A DNA stretch of 64,000 nucleotides, from the NCBI GenBank assembly GCA_001803205.1, contig MHBE01000051.1:1-64000 (forward strand), written 5' to 3'. The notes below the pieces were generated by a model, which was given only the letters and a program-made list of their open reading frames with translations, was not told where the DNA came from and made no database searches. The stretch's first letter is position 1, and every line of letters starts with the position of its first letter. Positions 5,478 to 42,895 of this stretch are shown here, one piece after another. Origin of the DNA: Lentisphaerae bacterium GWF2_38_69 (GTDB lineage Bacteria > Verrucomicrobiota > Lentisphaeria > Victivallales > GWF2-38-69). A program made the translations under genes and the position numbers.

Positions 5478-7424
5478 TTAGTTAATGGACTCTTTTTCAA
5501 GTCCGATAACCATCAGTTCCGATACTCTCTTTGCAAACTGAAGTGGGTTAGCTATCGGGCTTCCTTCTGCAAGAAGAGCCTGATCATAGAGCAATTGGGC
5601 ATAATCTCCGAGTTTCGGACTGCTGTTGTTTTTCTCAAACAGATTTTTCAGCGAGCTTATCAAAGGATGATTAGGATTGATCTCAAGGATTCTTTTTGTC
5701 TTAGGAGCATTCTGGTTCATTGCCTTCATAATCTTTTCCATATAGGGACTCTGATCATACGCTCCGCCTACCAAACAGCATGCGCTGTCAGTAAGCCTGT
5801 GAGAGAATCTGACTTCCTTGATATTCTCATCAAGTTTCTTCTGTATAAATTCAAGAAGTGAACTGTACTCTTTCTTTGCTGCTTCTTCTTTGTCTTTTCT
5901 TGCTTTCTTTTCTTCTTCAGTATCGATATCAAGTTCGCCTTTTCCTATTGCCTTAAGAGATTTCTTGTCATATTCATAGAGGCTCATAGCCACAAACTCA
6001 TCGATAGGCTCAGTCATGAAAATTACATCATATCCTTTCGACTTGAAGACTTCAAGGTGTGGAGAATTCTCAAGGAGAGCTCTGCTTTCGCCGGCAATAT
6101 AATAAATGTCTTTCTGCGAAGAAGGCATCATTGAAACATAGTCCTTAAGGCTTACAAGCTTGCCTGGCTCACTCTTCATTGTTTCAAAAAGCAGAAGATC
6201 CTGAAGTTTATCTTTATTGGCATAATCTACATGGACTCCTTCCTTAATGAATTTTCCGAACTCCTTAAAGAAAGAGACATATTTTTCCTGTTCGTTATCT
6301 TTTATCTGTGTTAAAGTGGTAATTATTTTTTTGACAAGGTTTTTTGATATCTTGTCAATAGCCGGATTGTCCTGAAGCATCTCTCTGGAAACATTAAGAG
6401 GAAGATCGCTCGAATCGACGACACCATTAACGAATCTGAGATATTCAGGGAGCAATCCCTGGCACTCATCTGTAATAAAAATTCTTCTTATATAGAGATG
6501 CAGGCTCTTCTTTCTCATATCGGGCGCAAAGAAGTTAAATGGATTTTTGCCCGGGATATAGAGCAGAGCTTTGAATTCCGAAGTGCCTTCAGCAGAAAAA
6601 TGGATAGTCTTAAGAGGATCATCTGACGAATGGCTTAGATGATCAAAGAACTGCTTGTATTCATCTTCAGTGATTTCTTTGGGATTTCTTAGCCAGATCG
6701 CCTTCTGTGAATTCAATATCTCGTCTTTCTCAATATCGATGTATTCTGTCTTTTCATCATTATCATCGGGATTTTTCTTTGGTTTAGCTTCCTTTACAGT
6801 GTCCTTCATTCTGACAGGGTACTCAATAAAATCTGAATATTTCTTTACTATTTCCCTTACTTTCCATGCATCCAGGTATTTTTCTTCATCCTTTTTAAGT
6901 TCCAGGACAATAGTTGTTCCCTGTTCTATTCTGGAGCTTTCCTCTATTGCGTATTCTCCATTGCCAGTAGAAATCCATTTTACAGAAGGCTCTGAAGAGC
7001 CGGCTTTTTTCGTTTCTATCTCAATACAGTCGGCAATCATGAAAGCTGAATAGAACCCAACTCCGAACTGCCCGATAAGTTCCGGGGCATTCATGGTGTC
7101 AGACTTAGTCATTTCTTCTAGGAAACTTTTCGTGCCTGAGTGTGCAATTGTTCCGATATTTTTTATTATTTCGTCACGGGTCATTCCTATTCCGTTATCA
7201 CTAATTGTCAGTTTCTTAGCTTTTTTGTCAGAATCGACTCTTATGCTCCATTCCTGAGCAACCTCCTTATGTGACAGAGATAAAAACCGTGCCTTATCTA
7301 TTGCGTCTGCAGAATTGGCTATAAGCTCTCTCAGAAAAATATCTTTATTAGAATAGAGTGAATGGATCATCAGATCCAAAACCTTCTGTGTCTGCGCTTC
7401 GAATTTTCTTGTCTCTTTAGTCAT
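5478..7424 (-). CDS. htpG: Chaperone protein HtpG (Hsp90)
   Basis: This is a full-length 648-residue bacterial Hsp90, a cytoplasmic ATP-dependent chaperone dimer. The GHKL ATPase motifs are all present: E-L-I-A-N-S-A-D-A-I-D-K near residue 35, D-N-G-I-G-M near 77 and G-Q-F-G-V-G-F-Y near 120. The middle domain has L-Y-I-R-R-I-F-I-T-D and L-P-L-N-V-S-R-E-M-L-Q, and the C-terminal dimerisation domain follows. An A-A-G-G-A-G Shine-Dalgarno precedes the ATG. It is first in a likely transcript with the MFS and ClpX-like genes and diverges from dxs. The shared intergenic region holds a 20-bp inverted repeat that could be its heat-shock operator; the CIRCE consensus was not seen. Confidence 0.97.
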   Translation of the reverse strand: MTKETRKFEAQTQKVLDLMIHSLYSNKDIFLRELIANSADAIDKARFLSLSHKEVAQEWSIRVDSDKKAKKLTISDNGIGMTRDEIIKNIGTIAHSGTKSFLEEMTKSDTMNAPELIGQFGVGFYSAFMIADCIEIETKKAGSSEPSVKWISTGNGEYAIEESSRIEQGTTIVLELKKDEEKYLDAWKVREIVKKYSDFIEYPVRMKDTVKEAKPKKNPDDNDEKTEYIDIEKDEILNSQKAIWLRNPKEITEDEYKQFFDHLSHSSDDPLKTIHFSAEGTSEFKALLYIPGKNPFNFFAPDMRKKSLHLYIRRIFITDECQGLLPEYLRFVNGVVDSSDLPLNVSREMLQDNPAIDKISKNLVKKIITTLTQIKDNEQEKYVSFFKEFGKFIKEGVHVDYANKDKLQDLLLFETMKSEPGKLVSLKDYVSMMPSSQKDIYYIAGESRALLENSPHLEVFKSKGYDVIFMTEPIDEFVAMSLYEYDKKSLKAIGKGELDIDTEEEKKARKDKEEAAKKEYSSLLEFIQKKLDENIKEVRFSHRLTDSACCLVGGAYDQSPYMEKIMKAMNQNAPKTKRILEINPNHPLISSLKNLFEKNNSSPKLGDYAQLLYDQALLAEGSPIANPLQFAKRVSELMVIGLEKESIN

Positions 7425-7491
7425 AATAAACTCCTTGATGATTCATATAGTTTTTTGAAAATTTAAATTAAAACAATAAAATCTACTCTAA

Positions 7492-7556
7492 AAATATCAA
7501 ATTGAAAAATATTTCTGAAAGTGTCTATTAACAAATTATTTTTCAATTTGATATTT
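7492..7556. promoter_or_regulatory. 20-bp perfect inverted repeat between htpG and dxs
   Basis: The left arm is 7492-7511 and the right arm 7537-7556. They are exact reverse complements over 20 bp (core AATATCAAATTGAAAAAT), separated by 25 bases. The repeat lies between two divergently transcribed genes, where a terminator would have no use, so a shared operator or a structured 5' leader is more likely. It does not match CIRCE (TTAGCACTC-N9-GAGTGCTAA). Confidence 0.6.
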
Positions 7557-7579
7557 ACTATTCTTTTTATGGTTTAAAT

Positions 7580-9445
7580 ATGCCTGTTCTTGACTTTATC
7601 AATTTTCCGGCAGATCTGAAACAAAGAACTGTTGCAGAGCTGGAAACTCTGGCTATAGAAATAAGAGATACAATTCTGCAGGTCACTTCAAAAAATGGCG
7701 GCCATTTATCTTCAAATCTAGGAATAGTCGAACTTACAATAGCACTTCATTATGCTTTCAACACGCCTCACGACAAAATCATCTGGGATGTTTCTCATCA
7801 GTGTTACGCGCATAAAATTCTGACAGGACGAAAAAATCTCATATATACCTTAAGGCAGAATGACGGATGTTTGGGATTTACTTCAAGATCTGAATCTGAA
7901 TATGATGTTTTCGGCGCCGGCCATGCAGGTACTGCCATTTCAGCCGCATTAGGAATAGCCGCCGCCAGAGACAGGTTAAAAACTGATGAAAAAGTAATAG
8001 CTGTCGTGGGTGACGCATCGTTTTCAAACGGCCTGTCGCTTGAAGCTCTCAACAATGTAGCTACCTGCACAAAAAATCTTATTATTATTTTAAACGATAA
8101 TAAAATGTCAATTTCCGGAAATGTAGGCAGCCTGACCAATCACCTTAATAGTCTCATACAAAAAAGAACATATAATAATTTCAGAAAGTATTTCAAAAAA
8201 CACCTCCTGAGAATCCCTCGTGTCGGTCAAAGAATCTATGATCTTGTTAACCGAATCGAAGATGGAATAAAAAGCATGATAGTGCCCGGCGCATTTTTTG
8301 AAAATCTCGGCCTTCGCTATATAGGGCCTGTTGACGGGCACAATATTGCAGGTCTTGTTGATACATTTTCTAAAATAAAAGAGTTTGACACGCCAGTCCT
8401 CCTTCATATTTTGACAGGGAAAGGCAAAGGATATAAACCTGCGGAAATGTATCCTGATAAATATCACGGACTTGGTAAATTTGATCCTTCTACCGGCGAA
8501 GTTATTAAGAAAAGCGAACAGAGTAAGAGCTTCTCTGAAGCGTTCGGGCATTCAGCTGTCTTGCTTGCCGAGAAACATTCAAATGTAGTAGCAATTACTG
8601 CTGCAATGTGTTCAGGCACAGGCCTGAATCAATTCTCGCGGCAATTCCCTGACAGGTTCTTTGATGTCGGAATTAATGAAGGGCATGGCATGGTTTTTGC
8701 AGCAGGGCTGGCGGTTAACGGTCTTAGACCCATATATGCCGTCTATGCTACATTTTTACAGAGGGCAATGTCCAGTTTGTACCACGATATATGCCTTCAG
8801 AATCTGCCTGTTATTATCTGTGCTGACAGAACAGGAATAGTCGACGACGGGCCGACTCATCATGGCATTTATGATCTGTCATATCTCAGAGCGCTTCCTA
8901 ATTTATCTATAATTTATCCATCGACAGAAAATGAGATGAATCTCTTTTTAGACATGGCTTATAAAGCCGCTTCGCCTGTTGTAATCAAATACCCCAAAGC
9001 CTCTTTAATAAAATATCCTTTCGAAAATAACCCAGTCGAATATTCCTGGGGCAAATCCATTACCCTCAAAGAAGGAAAGGACATTTCCATCTGGACTACA
9101 GGCATTGAATTTTCTACAGCACTGGAAGTTTCTCATATACTTTCAGCACATAATATTGATGCTGAAATTGTTAATTGTATTTTTATTAAACCTTTTGATT
9201 CTGATAAACTTATCAGCACAGCTTCAACTAAACTTATAGTTACTGTTGAAGACAATTCACTTATCGGTGGGTTAGCTTCAATTGTAGATGAAATTCTTAT
9301 TAATTGCAAAAATTGCGGGACTATGCACTTTGGATGGCCTGATAAAATCATCCCTCATGGAACAGTCAAAGGAATCAAATCCAGAGAAGGAATTACCCCT
9401 GAAACTATTGCAGAAAAAATATTAAAAAAAATCAAATCAAAGTAA
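7580..9445 (+). CDS. dxs: 1-deoxy-D-xylulose-5-phosphate synthase
   Basis: This 621-residue thiamine-diphosphate enzyme condenses pyruvate and glyceraldehyde-3-phosphate in the first step of the methylerythritol phosphate isoprenoid pathway. Visible landmarks are S-N-L-G-I-V-E-L-T, W-D-V-S-H-Q-C-Y-A-H-K-I-L-T-G, G-A-G-H-A-G-T-A-I-S and the cofactor-binding G-D-A-S-F-S-N-G (a variant of the common G-D-G-A-L-T-G-G). Further on come G-P-V-D-G-H, T-G-K-G-K-G-Y-K-P-A and H-H-G-I-Y-D in the transketolase-like domain. The length is normal. Lgt follows after 5 bases, so isoprenoid precursor and lipoprotein maturation genes share a transcript. Confidence 0.95.
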   Translation: MPVLDFINFPADLKQRTVAELETLAIEIRDTILQVTSKNGGHLSSNLGIVELTIALHYAFNTPHDKIIWDVSHQCYAHKILTGRKNLIYTLRQNDGCLGFTSRSESEYDVFGAGHAGTAISAALGIAAARDRLKTDEKVIAVVGDASFSNGLSLEALNNVATCTKNLIIILNDNKMSISGNVGSLTNHLNSLIQKRTYNNFRKYFKKHLLRIPRVGQRIYDLVNRIEDGIKSMIVPGAFFENLGLRYIGPVDGHNIAGLVDTFSKIKEFDTPVLLHILTGKGKGYKPAEMYPDKYHGLGKFDPSTGEVIKKSEQSKSFSEAFGHSAVLLAEKHSNVVAITAAMCSGTGLNQFSRQFPDRFFDVGINEGHGMVFAAGLAVNGLRPIYAVYATFLQRAMSSLYHDICLQNLPVIICADRTGIVDDGPTHHGIYDLSYLRALPNLSIIYPSTENEMNLFLDMAYKAASPVVIKYPKASLIKYPFENNPVEYSWGKSITLKEGKDISIWTTGIEFSTALEVSHILSAHNIDAEIVNCIFIKPFDSDKLISTASTKLIVTVEDNSLIGGLASIVDEILINCKNCGTMHFGWPDKIIPHGTVKGIKSREGITPETIAEKILKKIKSK

Positions 9446-25961: not shown

Positions 25962-26714
25962 ATGAATATTCTGCTTACAAATGACGACGGATATACATCA
26001 GAGGGGATACACGCTCTTTATAATATCCTGTCAAAATCACATAAAGTATTTGTCCTTGCCCCGCTATCCCAGAAAAGCGCCGTAGGGCACGGCATAACAA
26101 TTAACCGTTCTATGAAACTTCAGAAAATAACACACGGATTTGCTCTAGAAGGGACTCCTGCAGATTGCGTAAAAGTAGCTGTTTACGGCATGTTCAAGGA
26201 TGTGAAATTCGATTTGGTTCTTTCCGGAATAAATGATGGCTGCAATTTGGGAACAGATGTTTTTTACTCAGGCACCTGCGCCGGAGCCAGAGAAGGACTG
26301 ATTAACAAAATACCCGGAATTGCTGTTTCGATGTGCAGGCCTGTTGATAAGGAGAAACTCTCTGCGGCGGCAGATTTAACAGCTAAACTAGTTGATAAGA
26401 TTTCGGATACTCTGCTCAAAGAAAAAATGATTCTCAATATTAATTTCCCGAGCAAACACTTTTTTAAAGAACTTCGCCTGACAAAACTTGGGCTGAGGTT
26501 CTATAACGAATCAATCTATGTTGAAGACAAAGACGGGATTTCCTACGCTTCGGTTCTCTACCCCGATCAGCTCTTCTTCAATAATATGGAAAACAGCGAT
26601 CTGGACTGCATAGAATCCGGCGCCGTATCAATTACTCCTATGACCAATGACTTCTTTTCTCCGCCTGACTTTGATAAGCTATCTTCTATGATCTTTAATT
26701 TTAAGCTGACTTGA
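25962..26714 (+). CDS. surE: 5'/3'-nucleotidase SurE
   Basis: The 250-residue protein is a typical SurE phosphatase acting on nucleoside monophosphates, with M-N-I-L-L-T-N-D-D-G-Y at the start. The two Asp of N-D-D-G bind the metal; S-A-V-G-H-G-I-T and L-E-G-T-P-A-D-C-V follow, then S-G-I-N-D-G-C-N-L-G and Y-S-G-T-C-A-G-A-R-E-G. The last 91 bases before the stop (26619-26709) are repeated almost exactly at 28969-29059, beyond an island. The two mismatches inside the coding part are synonymous, so the protein C-terminus is the same from either copy until the last residue. Confidence 0.95.
   Translation: MNILLTNDDGYTSEGIHALYNILSKSHKVFVLAPLSQKSAVGHGITINRSMKLQKITHGFALEGTPADCVKVAVYGMFKDVKFDLVLSGINDGCNLGTDVFYSGTCAGAREGLINKIPGIAVSMCRPVDKEKLSAAADLTAKLVDKISDTLLKEKMILNINFPSKHFFKELRLTKLGLRFYNESIYVEDKDGISYASVLYPDQLFFNNMENSDLDCIESGAVSITPMTNDFFSPPDFDKLSSMIFNFKLT
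26619..26709 (+). repeat. Direct repeat copy 1 (surE 3' end)
   Basis: This 91-bp stretch is the end of surE and matches 28969-29059 at 89 of 91 positions. Identity stops abruptly on both sides: before GGCGCCGTATCA and just before the stop codon. The pair brackets the AbiE island. Confidence 0.95.
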
Positions 26715-26790
26715 TGTCTGCATGTCTTTTTCTGTCATGCGTTCTTGGTTTTTTTAAAAGTAATGGGATCAATACGATTTCTATTGCCAA

Positions 26791-27180
26791 TCAATCATAA
26801 TACTCAGGAAAATATTCTTTACGGAAACATTGCCATAGAATTTTTGATATTTCCTCATCTGCATCATCTTCATTATCTCTTGGAGTAGTCTTTTCAAGCT
26901 CATACAAGCCCAGATTAATTTCTCCCCATAAAAATCCTTCTTTTTCATATTTTCTAATATTTTTTATATTCATTCCCCGAATTGTGATACTATCCCATTT
27001 TATCAGGGCGATACCGTTATCATAAATTTCAGCAATTCTTCCACACCAATTGCCAATTGTGGTTTTATCATCATCGGGGTCTTTTATTCCGTCTTTAACT
27101 TTTACAAAATCTCCCATCTTAAAACCATTCAATTCTGAAACAGCTTTTGGAGATTCATCTTTATCGTTTATTTTCTTCAT
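26791..27180 (-). CDS. Unknown 129-residue protein with an SH3-like N-terminal segment
   Basis: The protein is acidic. The segment F-K-M-G-D-F-V-K-V-K-D-G followed by G-R-I-A-E-I-Y-D-N-G-I-A-L-I-K-W-D-S (about residues 20-67) has the look of a small SH3/KOW-like barrel. A Glu/Asp-rich linker and an aromatic C-terminal tail (Y-F-P-E-Y-Y-D) follow. No family is recognised. Its ATG overlaps the stop codon of the 50-residue gene upstream (ATGA), so the two form a coupled pair inside the island between the surE repeats. Function is unknown; a toxin-immunity or toxin-antitoxin type pair is possible from size and layout only. Confidence 0.65.
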   Translation of the reverse strand: MKKINDKDESPKAVSELNGFKMGDFVKVKDGIKDPDDDKTTIGNWCGRIAEIYDNGIALIKWDSITIRGMNIKNIRKYEKEGFLWGEINLGLYELEKTTPRDNEDDADEEISKILWQCFRKEYFPEYYD

Positions 27181-27329
27181 ATAAATATTATTTTTATTTC
27201 AATTGGCAATTTATTTTCCGGTTTGATGTCAATTATTGACTCATAAAGTAAATAATCATGACTTTTGGGATGGCAATAGTTAACGATAAAACGATCTTTT
27301 TCCGTATAAATTGATTTCGAACTTTTCAT
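27177..27329 (-). CDS. Unknown 50-residue protein coupled to the 129-residue gene
   Basis: The frame opens with ATG at 27329, preceded at 4 bases by a strong Shine-Dalgarno (AGGAG), and ends with TGA overlapping the next ATG. The predicted peptide begins M-K-S-S-K-S-I-Y and has Y-C-H-P-K-S-H-D-Y in the middle and a hydrophobic I-K-I-I-F-I end. It has no recognised family. The good ribosome site and the 4-base overlap are the reasons for calling it real. Confidence 0.6.
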   Translation of the reverse strand: MKSSKSIYTEKDRFIVNYCHPKSHDYLLYESIIDIKPENKLPIEIKIIFI

Positions 27330-27383
27330 GATTCTCCTATTAGTTTCCTTCAAAAATCTACATATTCTTGCGTGTAGGTGCTG

Positions 27384-28280
27384 TTAGCTGTAGTTTTCAT
27401 TTAATTCGGCAACAATTGATATGTAAAACTGCTGAATCATATCGAACGCTGATTGAATATCCCTATTGATTCCGCATATTTCAGCGATTTTCTTAAACGG
27501 GATATTCCAAGAAACTGGCGGAACAGGCAGCTCCAGCGGAATCGTATGCGTTTCTCTTCTCCGAAAGGTCTCAACAAGCATACTCCAAAGCCTGTCTTCT
27601 TCCAAATTGCCTCTCTCTATCAGTAATAGAATATCAACAAGATCCTTAACACGAGAATTTGGGATTTTACGCGGCAAGGTATAAGCATGTATTTTCTCCG
27701 CGAACTGTTGTTCTTTTGAAATAGCCGGGATGGCCGTTGATTCTATTCCTGCAAAGCCAAACCAATCGTGCAGTTTGATCATTTCATGCGGTTCAATCCA
27801 TGCATCCCCTGCTGCAATATCAATCTCAAATTTAATAAATACCCGCCCTGCCATTCTAGCTTCAATTGGGAATCGATATCCACCATGAGGAGCGTTCTCA
27901 AGGTCAAGAATAGTCTTACCGATAATAAACTCGAAGAAATCTTTTGTATTAATAGCTGCGGTACGCTGGAGAAAATCTTGGAGTGCCTTCGGATCAGAAA
28001 AACCCTGGCCTTTCCAAATCCCTCCGAGTGTTCCATTAAAAGAAATGTCTATATCCTTAGTCGTTCTTGCGTTGTTTATCCAGAGTTCAAGAGCGTATCC
28101 ACCCTTAACTATCAAGTTCTTTGCGCCTGCAGAGAACAGACGCATAAGAAAGCGATCGAAAGCAACATGGCGACGCAATCTCATGACATCTATGCCTTTG
28201 TCTCGAGCCATTTGATTCAATCGCTCTTCTAGCGCAGTGCGCATGCTTTGAGGGGTTTGATATTTCAGATTAGGCTTCAT
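27384..28280 (-). CDS. abiEii: AbiEii/AbiGii family nucleotidyltransferase toxin
   Basis: This 298-residue protein is the toxin half of a type IV AbiE toxin-antitoxin system. The nucleotidyltransferase core shows K-G-G-Y-A-L-E-L near residue 60, then R-T-T-K-D-I-D-I-S-F with the two catalytic Asp, and a later K-V/D-L-V-D-I-L-L motif (about residue 210). AbiEii enzymes inhibit growth by adding nucleotides to RNA, shown for tRNA in relatives, and can abort phage infection. The gene follows the antitoxin gene after 2 bases. Its base composition looks more GC-rich than neighbouring genes, in keeping with transfer. Confidence 0.9.
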   Translation of the reverse strand: MKPNLKYQTPQSMRTALEERLNQMARDKGIDVMRLRRHVAFDRFLMRLFSAGAKNLIVKGGYALELWINNARTTKDIDISFNGTLGGIWKGQGFSDPKALQDFLQRTAAINTKDFFEFIIGKTILDLENAPHGGYRFPIEARMAGRVFIKFEIDIAAGDAWIEPHEMIKLHDWFGFAGIESTAIPAISKEQQFAEKIHAYTLPRKIPNSRVKDLVDILLLIERGNLEEDRLWSMLVETFRRRETHTIPLELPVPPVSWNIPFKKIAEICGINRDIQSAFDMIQQFYISIVAELNENYS

Positions 28281-28282
28281 CT

Positions 28283-28882
28283 CTAATCACCAATAATCTC
28301 TTGCAGGCGAGAGCCGACTCTCTTGATCTTTTTGAGCATACAATACTGTTCGTGCGTCAGGTAACCTCTGTTAATAGCCTGTTCGACAGCTTGTTTTATA
28401 AATTCAGGAGATGTCGCCATGGAGCGTAACAGATCAACCACAGTTCTATACGGCTTGGTGACGCGATAACCATTTCTTTCTTCATATTCGGATGGTTCAA
28501 TTATTGAATGATGCAGAAGAAGTATTTTAGGAATTTCACTATGCCGGCGATAACCGCGAGGAACCGTCATGTGGAGCTTTTCCGGCTGAACATCACTCAG
28601 CTCAAAAAGCGAAAGTGCCGTTTCATGTGAATACACTCCCTGAGGGATACCTTTTCTGTTCATCGACCATACACCCCAAAGAGAATAATGCGCATCATCC
28701 TGGAGAGGAAATCTTGCAAGCCGGTATATCCCTCGCTCCTCGCGAATCCAATTTCCGGCTTGAACATGATACAGGTGATTTTTATTGCTAAACCCGGCAT
28801 GTATAGCCTGAAACGCTGTGAAATATCCGCCTTGTGTGGAAGCTGTTTCGAAAAGGGCACTTTCTGCATTATTTGTTTTCAT
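28283..28882 (-). CDS. abiEi: AbiEi family antitoxin / transcriptional repressor
   Basis: The 199-residue protein has the AbiEi layout: an N-terminal winged helix (about residues 5-50, including G-Y-F-T-A-F-Q-A-I-H-A-G) and the segment Y-S-H-E-T-A-L-S-L-F-E-L-S-D. The C-terminal domain has Y-R-V-T-K-P-Y-R-T-V-V-D-L-L. Known AbiEi proteins neutralise AbiEii without stable binding and repress their own promoter by binding inverted repeats. A matching inverted repeat overlaps the start codon here. It is the first gene of the two-gene operon. Confidence 0.9.
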   Translation of the reverse strand: MKTNNAESALFETASTQGGYFTAFQAIHAGFSNKNHLYHVQAGNWIREERGIYRLARFPLQDDAHYSLWGVWSMNRKGIPQGVYSHETALSLFELSDVQPEKLHMTVPRGYRRHSEIPKILLLHHSIIEPSEYEERNGYRVTKPYRTVVDLLRSMATSPEFIKQAVEQAINRGYLTHEQYCMLKKIKRVGSRLQEIIGD

Positions 28883-28922
28883 GTAGTATATAATCCTTAA
28901 TAATTAGTTATATTATACTACA
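28882..28922 (-). promoter_or_regulatory. AbiE operator/promoter (inverted repeat over the start codon)
   Basis: TGTAGTATA (28882-28890) and TATACTACA (28914-28922) are exact inverted repeats with 23 bases between. On the minus strand the upstream arm overlaps a perfect -10 box, TATAAT, and the downstream arm touches the abiEi ATG. The -35 is weak. The layout suits repression by AbiEi dimers, as known for other AbiE operons. Confidence 0.6.
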
Positions 28923-28968
28923 CATTGTTCGGTTGGCTACACCTGTTTTAAGAAAATGCCGAAACGAT

Positions 28969-29059
28969 GGCGCCGTATCAATTACTCCTATGACCAATGA
29001 CTTCTTCTCCCCGCCTGACTTTGATAAGCTATCTTCTATGATCTTTAATTTTAAGCTGA
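28969..29059 (+). repeat. Direct repeat copy 2 (surE 3'-end duplicate)
   Basis: This matches the surE end at 26619-26709 with two mismatches (TTTTCT versus TTCTCC in the Phe-Ser codons), both synonymous. The frame closes with its own stop codon, TAA at 29062-29064, instead of TGA. No start codon or nucleotidase body precedes it, so it is a displaced or duplicated gene end and not a gene. Confidence 0.95.
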
Positions 29060-29170
29060 ATTAACATTTGACAATATGGCAAGTGGTCCTATCCTCCGAG
29101 ACAAAAGCCCGAGGAGGGCTACAGTGCTTAAATTTACAACAATCCCCGCCATTGTGTTAGCGCCTGGCTT

Positions 29171-30211
29171 TTAGTATTTACTATCAAGTTTTCTCGTTAT
29201 TAAAATTACAAATATTCCCAGCACAAAATATCCTAAGATAAGTTCTGAAGTTATAATTAGTTGCATAAAATTAGTCTTTGGAATAATATCTCCAAATCCA
29301 AATGATACAAAAATCGAGACACTGTAATATACCATTGAAAGAAAATTTTGAGGAATGTTCCTGTTAAAAATCAAATTACAATGGTTAAAATAATATACTA
29401 AGGCAAATGCTAAGATTAATAATACTGAATTGAATGCAAGAACAGCAAAAGAAGTCCAGTATTTTGTCAAGACGATATTAAATATTAAGAAGAACTTCTC
29501 ATGAAGTCTTAGGCTATTATAATTATCAAGCTGTTTGTTAACATATAAATACCAATCAATATATTTTTTTAAAGATTGGTTTTCTGGATTTCTAAAATCA
29601 TTTGTAAAATTCGCATTACTAAAAGCAGACTCCTTATCCATTTTTACGGAGACCAATCTGGCATTAACAAAAGAAGCTTTTACGAAATTACAATTATATA
29701 GAAAAACTTGTTCAAAATTCGTTTTATCAAAATTTGCATTGGCAAAAAAACAATTTGCAATCTTACAGTTACGAATAACAATTCCTGATAAATCAATTCC
29801 TCTTAAATCTGTTAATCCCCCCACATGAGAAGTATTAAAAGACTTTGCAAAATCATCAAGTGAATAGTACTTATCATTATACTCAAAGCTAAATTGGGAA
29901 AATTCAATTATTAGTTTAGATGGTACAGGAGTGGCAACATTGTTGTTGTTTATCCATTTTTCTTGAACTGACTCTATATGCTCACGAACTGCACTTTGAC
30001 AAGCTTTTCCTATTTCAGATTTCCACCTAACGAGAAGTTCAAATGTTGGATAATACCAAGGACTATACTTTTTGAGGATATCCTTTAATGCATGTTCATT
30101 TCCAAACCAATAGTCAGAAATATTGGAATAATTTTTATGTCCATGTTTCTCAAAAATCTTTATTACTTTCTCAAAATTCATATTCATCATTAAATAGGTT
30201 TTGGCGCACAA
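29171..30211 (-). CDS. Pentapeptide-repeat two-helix potassium channel
   Basis: The 346-residue protein joins three parts: an N-terminal alpha-helical region (about 1-130), a short pentapeptide-repeat stretch (about 140-200, with N-C-F-F-A, N-A-N-F-D, K-T-N-F-E type units) and a C-terminal Ion_trans_2 pore. The pore has a first helix near 240-262, a selectivity filter S-F-G-F-G-D near residue 309 (variant of T-V-G-Y-G-D) and a second helix to the end. It should be an inner-membrane potassium-selective channel gated by an unknown cytoplasmic signal. It is notably AT-rich. The start may be the ATG here or one of the Met codons 7-10 residues later. Confidence 0.82.
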   Translation of the reverse strand: MCAKTYLMMNMNFEKVIKIFEKHGHKNYSNISDYWFGNEHALKDILKKYSPWYYPTFELLVRWKSEIGKACQSAVREHIESVQEKWINNNNVATPVPSKLIIEFSQFSFEYNDKYYSLDDFAKSFNTSHVGGLTDLRGIDLSGIVIRNCKIANCFFANANFDKTNFEQVFLYNCNFVKASFVNARLVSVKMDKESAFSNANFTNDFRNPENQSLKKYIDWYLYVNKQLDNYNSLRLHEKFFLIFNIVLTKYWTSFAVLAFNSVLLILAFALVYYFNHCNLIFNRNIPQNFLSMVYYSVSIFVSFGFGDIIPKTNFMQLIITSELILGYFVLGIFVILITRKLDSKY

Positions 30212-41359: not shown

Positions 41360-42895
41360 TTACCTGTTTTTGTTTTTTAATTTTACACCTTTATCGCTAA
41401 GCCGATATTTTTGATGAGGGTGGTTGGGTTTATCCGGATATTTCAACTCGATGTAACCGCCTTCAATTGCAGGCAGAATATAATTTACCCTAAAAAAATC
41501 ATCGTGCCTTATCCCTATTAGAGATTGAATCTCTACCCTTTTCATCTCACCATTCAAAACAGCCACAAGATTTTTCAGATTTTTCGTAACTTCCCCAGTA
41601 ACTTCCCCAGTAACTTCCCCAGTAACTTCCCCAGTAACTTCCCCAGTAACTTCCCCAGTAACTTCCCCAGTAACTTCCCCAGTAACTTCTTTTCTCCAAA
41701 TAACGGCTCTGAATATTTCTTCTTGAATAAACTCAGGTGGCTTTAACCCTTCTTCTGTACAAAATCTTATGATATCTCTTGTTCCAGTTCCTATTCTCTC
41801 TATATATCCTGCAAGATACATCGGTTCAGCCAGCAGCGGATTATAGGGAATAGACGGATGCATTTCCCTGAGTTTTACTGTCGTAAGACCGAAAGGCAAA
41901 TGCCCAGGATTCCATATCTCAAGACGATCTTTGAACAGCATCACCTGTACACTTCCATTGCTTGTGTAATCTTTGTGAACTACGGAATTAACAATCGCTT
42001 CAGAAATCGCAGCCCTTGGAATTTCGTAATGAAGCGGTGCGTCGTTGCTTTTATCGCGGACACCTATAGAAGCCTCGATTTTGGAAAGCACGAAATCGAC
42101 TGCCTGGTTAACAAGTTGAAACACATCTCCTTTATAAACTTGATAAGAAGGGATCGGTTTTACTATGTCCTTGCCGTGAAAGTGGGCACATTTTACTTCG
42201 GAAGTTATAAAAAATTTTTGGGGTTGTTTTCCAAAAAGTAATATTGCCGCATTGGTGATCCTGCCATCAGAAAAAAGATTAAGATGAGTGAGAATTTCCT
42301 CTTTTTTGGACTCTTCAGAAAGTGGAAAACTCCTTTTACTTTTGGCAAGGCGTACAAACTCTTTAATCTTTTCGGTATCGAGGTCATCAATCGTTGCAGA
42401 ATTATTCAGTTCGGCATCAAAAGGGACTGTTCTTATATATTCTTTTTCTTCTAAGTATCTGATAAGGGAAGCATATATAGCATATTTTAATTCATAAGAT
42501 GAAGAAAATTGTTTTCTTACAACAGAATGTTCAGCCTTTTGTATTAAAGCTATTTCTTTAGGGTTCCTGTGCGAAAGTTTGTGAGAACTTAAAAATACAA
42601 GCCTTGTCTTGTGATGCTTTGTAGCATAATCAAATTCCCGTTCCGTAGGAGAAATTCCATCGACATCTTCATAGCCATATTCCTTTCCAAAAATTCCAAT
42701 GTAAATATCGCTTTGTTCAACTTCTTTTAAATAAATAGTCCTTGCAGAATGATTGAATGCAGCTTGCCTTTCAAAAATAAAAGGCTCAAAGAATTTTCCA
42801 AGTAACGGATCAGAATGCAAATATTCAAAAAGCATTTGACGCTCTTCAGCAAACTCTGATTGTACGCTGCTGATAAAAATTTTTATCTTTTTCAT
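41360..42895 (-). CDS. DUF4062 - RecG-like ATPase - (EVTG)n repeat protein
   Basis: I start it at ATG 42895 (511 residues); a TTG three codons upstream is the alternative. The N-terminal 90 residues are a DUF4062 domain (K-I-F-I-S-S-V-Q-S-E-F-A-E-E-R opening, then D-I-Y-I-G-I-F-G-K-E-Y-G-Y). The middle carries a GHKL-like ATPase as in RecG-related Schlafen/AlbA proteins: A-I-S-E-A-I-V-N-S-V-V-H-K-D-Y, L-E-I-W-N-P-G-H-L-P and I-G-T-G-T-R-D-I. Next come eight perfect E-V-T-G units, then a C-terminal winged-helix-like end. DUF4062 here takes the place normally held by the AlbA_2 domain. Function is unknown; DUF4062 occurs in several defence-like proteins. It sits between pyrG and carA. Confidence 0.82.
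   Translation of the reverse strand: MKKIKIFISSVQSEFAEERQMLFEYLHSDPLLGKFFEPFIFERQAAFNHSARTIYLKEVEQSDIYIGIFGKEYGYEDVDGISPTEREFDYATKHHKTRLVFLSSHKLSHRNPKEIALIQKAEHSVVRKQFSSSYELKYAIYASLIRYLEEKEYIRTVPFDAELNNSATIDDLDTEKIKEFVRLAKSKRSFPLSEESKKEEILTHLNLFSDGRITNAAILLFGKQPQKFFITSEVKCAHFHGKDIVKPIPSYQVYKGDVFQLVNQAVDFVLSKIEASIGVRDKSNDAPLHYEIPRAAISEAIVNSVVHKDYTSNGSVQVMLFKDRLEIWNPGHLPFGLTTVKLREMHPSIPYNPLLAEPMYLAGYIERIGTGTRDIIRFCTEEGLKPPEFIQEEIFRAVIWRKEVTGEVTGEVTGEVTGEVTGEVTGEVTGEVTGEVTKNLKNLVAVLNGEMKRVEIQSLIGIRHDDFFRVNYILPAIEGGYIELKYPDKPNHPHQKYRLSDKGVKLKNKNR
41586..41689. repeat. 12-bp tandem repeat, 8 full copies plus a partial copy
   Basis: The unit GTAACTTCCCCA is repeated without a mismatch from 41586 to 41681, and a partial unit GTAACTTC follows to 41689. 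On the coding strand it encodes E-V-T-G repeats. Because the unit is a multiple of three, copy-number change alters linker length without a frameshift. Perfect identity at third positions suggests recent expansion by slippage or recombination. Confidence 0.95.

Follow-up and report, generated by a model that had tools for sequence, protein, structure and literature searches.

An AbiE toxin-antitoxin gene pair lies between two copies of the 3' end of surE in the 64-kb stretch of DNA analysed here (the window), which raises the question of how the segment came to be bracketed by the end of a gene. Our preferred answer, to which we assign a probability of roughly 0.7, is that this surE unit is a remnant resembling a CIME (cis-mobilizable element): an island would have integrated site-specifically at the surE 3' end, and its integrase would since have been lost, or the island would have been moved in trans. 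The features of the locus are collected in Table 1.

Table 1 Features of the surE unit and of its target gene, in window coordinates
Feature	Positions	Strand	Evidence or remark
surE, 250 aa, intact; target gene	25962..26714	+	Pfam SurE, 6.7e-57
Repeat copy 1, surE end to first base of stop codon; putative attL, joined to gene	26619..26712	+	97% identity to 28969-29062
129-aa ORF	26791..27180	-	AT-rich (GC 0.32); start overlaps end of 58-aa ORF
58-aa ORF	27177..27353	-	No family match; 5' of and overlapping 129-aa ORF
AbiEii	27384..28280	-	PADLOC AbiEii, 9.7e-85; Pfam AbiEii, 9.8e-33; GG / DID / K / KDLVD motifs
AbiEi antitoxin/repressor, 199 aa	28283..28882	-	PADLOC AbiEi, 3.2e-61; Pfam AbiEi_4; alignment
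Imperfect palindrome directly 5' of AbiEi start; putative AbiEi operator	28882..28922		Arms 28882-28901 / 28903-28922, 75%
Repeat copy 2, orphan surE 3' end; putative attR	28969..29062	+	Stop TAA ends at 29064

The duplicated surE end and the genes between its copies

Self-comparison of the window by blastn matched the 3' end of surE to the orphan copy at 91 of 94 positions (E about 1e-38), making this pair the longest direct repeat of the window, and a chance origin is excluded. The initial annotation had described a 91-bp duplication, and both its place and its count were right (89 of 91 bases are the same between 26619-26709 and 28969-29059), with the match extending to 94 bp. As it had also stated, both differences within this core (TTT/TTC and TCT/TCC) are synonymous in the surE frame and the copies end in different stop codons, TGA in copy 1 and TAA in copy 2. 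The last sense codon is ACT (Thr) in copy 1 and AAT (Asn) in copy 2. On the 3' side homology ceases at the stop codon, and on the 5' side the boundary is sharp at position 26619, inside surE. A search of the whole assembly (3.12 Mb, 66 contigs) detected no third copy of the surE end, leaving two copies only. Elsewhere in the window, an exact direct repeat of 44 bases with 60-base spacing occupies positions 41586-41689.

The 2256 bp between the copies hold four minus-strand ORFs: AbiEi and AbiEii, plus two that encode 58 and 129 aa, in agreement with the earlier description of AbiE together with a small gene pair. AbiEi (wHTH antitoxin) and AbiEii (DUF1814 NTase) are adjacent on the same strand, 2 bp apart, and AbiEii has the NTase motifs I-IV used as AbiEii reference (PMC3985639) in the form G60 G61, R72, D76-I-D78, K196 and K212-D213-x-x-D216; the pair is predicted to be active. 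The inverted repeat 5' of AbiEi is what would be expected of an AbiEi operator, and comparable palindromes lie 5' of AbiEi in most of the related loci. The 129-aa ORF matched nothing in Pfam, NCBIfam, PADLOC, PHROGs or plasmids and gave a single weak match among 388 genomes; its structural model is mostly beta and of low confidence (pLDDT 56).

Analysis of the ORFs and family searches revealed no recombinase between the surE-end copies, not even an integrase fragment, upholding the earlier claim that neither an integrase nor a transposase lies there. We count this absence against the island reading. Just past the orphan copy, an AT-rich gene (GC 0.28; 29171-30211, minus strand) encodes pentapeptide repeats and an ion channel; it weakly matches the anti-phage effector HalA and may be another acquired gene.

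Distribution of AbiE and islands of the same genome

Homologs of AbiEii (E<=1e-20) occur in 11 of the 388 genomes of the phylum, the window's own included, whereas the other searched genomes from its family and order yielded none. This absence marks the AbiE of the surE unit as laterally acquired. The AbiEii protein had no match in viral contigs and phages, and its best plasmid match is 43% identical. In addition, IMG/VR contained no match to the 38-bp segment on the 5' side of the repeat or to a degenerate surE-end pattern; this also counts against the island reading. The nearest relative with surE, the same-family genome G001 (locus L010), has a surE ortholog of 58% identity beside gyrA; it keeps the gyrA-surE order and lacks both AbiE and the repeat. 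The same-family genome G002 is likewise devoid of the AbiE unit, and synteny downstream of surE is not conserved in either genome; neither presents an empty surE end, a further point against the island reading. Comparing the flanks downstream of the surE copies with L010 and L025 (G002), in order to find the resident copy, gave no homology either way. In L025, a noncoding direct repeat of 185 bp (5827-6010 and 7408-7592, 92%) flanks surE and a small cupin-like gene, and it looks like an interspersed repeat and not a gene end.

Phage_integrase was matched 17 times in the window's genome and resolvase once, in every case on a contig other than the window's. The repeat search in this genome covered the stretches around AbiE-like and integrase genes. 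Its other AbiEii-like loci showed no flanking repeats of the surE-unit kind, and the same geometry as at surE was found in two islands. The first, on contig C9 (L113, 4012-7890), extends over 3.8 kb from tRNA-Cys to a 65-bp copy of the 3' end of this tRNA gene and carries genes for BrnT, a CopG-type antitoxin and a caspase-domain protein, as well as a 149-aa tyrosine-integrase fragment. The second, on contig C5 (L115, 8299-13704), measures 5.3 kb and lies between tRNA-Ala and a 57-bp duplicate of the tRNA 3' end. It encodes HipA and an HTH partner, a Fic protein and a truncated tyrosine integrase of 217 aa. This genome thus provides instances of integration at gene ends, of toxin-antitoxin cargo and of decaying integrases, and the surE unit appears to represent the stage that follows, at which the integrase has disappeared. 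A repeat at locus L037, considered as a flanking repeat, was rejected as internal to a coiled-coil gene.

Gene ends at related AbiE loci

The survey of related loci comprised 33 members of the AbiE clade (the window and 32 further loci), all in the window's phylum. Direct repeats of at least 28 bp with E<=1e-5 and a spacing of <=3.5 kb around the AbiE pair were scored as bracketing, and equal-sized intervals slid over the same stretches served as control. Such repeats bracket 8 of the 33 loci, compared with 0.26 expected from the sliding controls, a count that is indicative, since the first examples were already known when the thresholds were fixed. With the window, which prompted the test, left out, the count at 3.5 kb is 7 of 32. 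At a spacing of <=4.5 kb, 11 of 33 loci are bracketed and 1.9 are expected; the 22 loci with no bracketing repeat within this distance, several of them cut by contig ends, count against the island reading.

Where the bracketing repeats are readable, they are gene ends, namely tRNA-Gly 3' ends, the 5' end of a lacI-type gene and the 5' end of a DUF4112 gene. A 28-base tRNA-Gly end occurs three times in L052 and delimits two units, one with AbiE and one with a DUF4143 ATPase. In L065, a tRNA-Gly gene is followed first by a tyrosine-integrase unit and then by the AbiE unit, each of them closed by a further tRNA end; L067 has copies of a tRNA-Gly end at a spacing of 4.4 kb. The repeat of L059 consists of the first 81 bases of the lacI-type gene, from its ATG, and that of L074 of the 5' region of the DUF4112 gene. 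In L071, AbiE is bracketed by a noncoding repeat of 123 bp, followed by an integrase gene, and the bracketing repeats of L081, L082, L083 and L068 are intergenic or have no clear nature. Integron cassettes, considered for L052 and L059, were rejected because the repeats proved to be the 3' end of a tRNA gene and the 5' end of a lacI-type gene, respectively.

Irrespective of repeats, AbiE lies <=750 bp 3' of a tRNA or tmRNA end, or of a T-arm remnant, in 8 of the 32 loci (RNA-gene ends in L052, L055, L058, L060, L065, L067 and L073; T-arm remnant in L071), when well under one locus would be expected on an estimate that assumes roughly one tRNA gene in every 90 kb. It adjoins the tmRNA 3' end in L058, and tRNA-Leu, -Thr and -Val genes or ends in L055, L060 and L073, respectively. 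These survey results suggest that gene-end brackets are recurrent in this AbiE clade, in this phylum.

Origin of the surE unit

On the CIME-like reading, a small integrative island would have entered the surE 3' end by site-specific integration. The incoming DNA would have brought a substitute surE 3' end, with recombination restoring the reading frame. The element would be the source of copy 1, now part of surE, and the orphan copy 2 would stem from the resident gene end that was displaced. The integrase would later have been lost, or an integrase acting in trans would have moved the island, and the AbiE type IV toxin-antitoxin pair and the two small ORFs would be the cargo retained. Toxin-antitoxin cargo is expected to outlast the decay of an integrase because its loss is costly to the cell, and the reported stabilisation of mobile elements by AbiE type IV systems (PMC3985639; ICESa2603, PMC11062541) offers a reason for the retention of AbiE. 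The end of the repeat at the surE stop codon and the mostly synonymous differences between its copies speak for the island, and the gene-end duplications at related AbiE loci, together with the decaying integrases in the genome's own islands, are a signature of site-specific integration. Counted against it is the length of the duplication, as 94 bp exceeds most tRNA att repeats. No ICE or IME with the same site was found at surE; a tandem of AbiE and integrase was seen at tRNA-Gly, in L065.

A CIME is the remnant of an ICE or IME that has lost its integration and transfer genes and has kept attL and attR (PMC5704250). Like a CIME, the surE unit has attL/attR-like direct repeats at a gene end (94 bp, 97%, ending at the surE stop codon) and, as judged from ORFs and family searches, contains no integrase or transfer genes, and its relative in L065 stands in tandem with an integrase unit. 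It differs in its size of only 2.3 kb, in its content of a toxin-antitoxin pair and two small ORFs and in its target, surE; the att role of its repeats and any present-day mobility are putative. Islands at dusA replace the 5' end of this gene with their own copy (PMC4482086), and others reside at the trmE 3' end (PMC8409611). In both cases, as proposed for surE, a substitute gene end borne by the element keeps the target protein intact, but these islands carry a dedicated integrase and the surE unit does not. The AbiE of the surE unit belongs to the same toxin and antitoxin families as AbiE on mobile elements, so that a stabilising role is plausible, if putative; here, in contrast, the host element has shrunk to almost nothing else.

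The initial annotation had named two possible mechanisms: either the element came with a surE end of its own, or it integrated with a long target duplication. The former fits much better, as indicated by the gene-end repeats at related AbiE loci, the L065 integrase unit and the two islands of the own genome. In the latter, insertion would have proceeded without a site-specific recombinase and the resident surE end would have been copied, as proposed for restriction-modification genes, and the locus does resemble those cases in its repeat length near 100 bp, in the lack of a recombinase inside the unit and in its cargo, a selfish, addiction-type module. A random target duplication has no reason to halt at a gene terminus, however, and thus fits less well with a repeat that stops exactly at the surE terminus and, in L059, starts at an ATG. 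Neither does it account for related AbiE units at tRNA and tmRNA ends, one of them sharing an array with an integrase. Copies made by duplication should moreover have started identical, whereas the three synonymous differences and one nonsynonymous difference look more like two functional alleles, although with so few changes this argument is weak: synonymous and nonsynonymous differences number 3/1 in the window, 2/2 in L059 and 11/20 in L074, a bias too weak to decide. We consider a long target duplication unlikely.

Explanations that involve no mobile island appear very improbable. AbiE could have arrived through ordinary recombination, homologous or illegitimate, with a donor fragment containing a surE end, for instance after natural transformation, or the surE end could have been duplicated locally by an unrelated rearrangement. 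Both would agree with the single unit of this kind seen in the genome and with copies that look like two alleles of one species, but would leave the recurrent gene-end bracketing of AbiE pairs in other genomes unexplained. The likeness of the copies to two alleles would also suit a chimera of two strains, and 66 contigs at 95% completeness are what one would expect of a draft genome or of one derived from a metagenome. Yet the junction at 28968/28969 joins DNA upstream of AbiE to mid-surE, which a simple allele bubble would not do, and usual reads are longer than 94 bp. An assembly error behind the repeat is unlikely, and a strain chimera in particular is extremely so.

A further, tentative reading, which we regard as possible but doubtful, is that this AbiE clade spreads as minimal non-autonomous cassettes, consisting of the AbiE pair and two att ends, that resident tyrosine integrases move in trans into the ends of tRNA, tmRNA and protein genes. 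If true, the toxin-antitoxin pair itself would be the mobile unit instead of cargo left behind by decay. For the CIME-like remnant that we favour, the surE unit ties a toxin-antitoxin pair to an integrase-free unit with exactly readable ends, and the literature searched contained no report of the surE end as an integration site. Gene-end brackets of this kind make it easy to test how defence genes continue to move, or remain in place, once their integrase is lost.

Several minor observations were made at other loci. In L052 (8538-10222) and L059 (1182-2832), genes for DUF4143/AAA_14 ATPases adjoin the AbiE units and are likewise enclosed by direct repeats; they may form units of the same kind. 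With its terminal inverted repeats of the AGGGAGTTGGAA type, an 89-bp repeat in L081 (4920-5008 and 8722-8810) looks like a miniature transposable element. Two loci of the window's genome, L105 (contig C18) and L106 (contig C6), each contain three consecutive Phage_integrase genes, like recombinase-in-trio elements.
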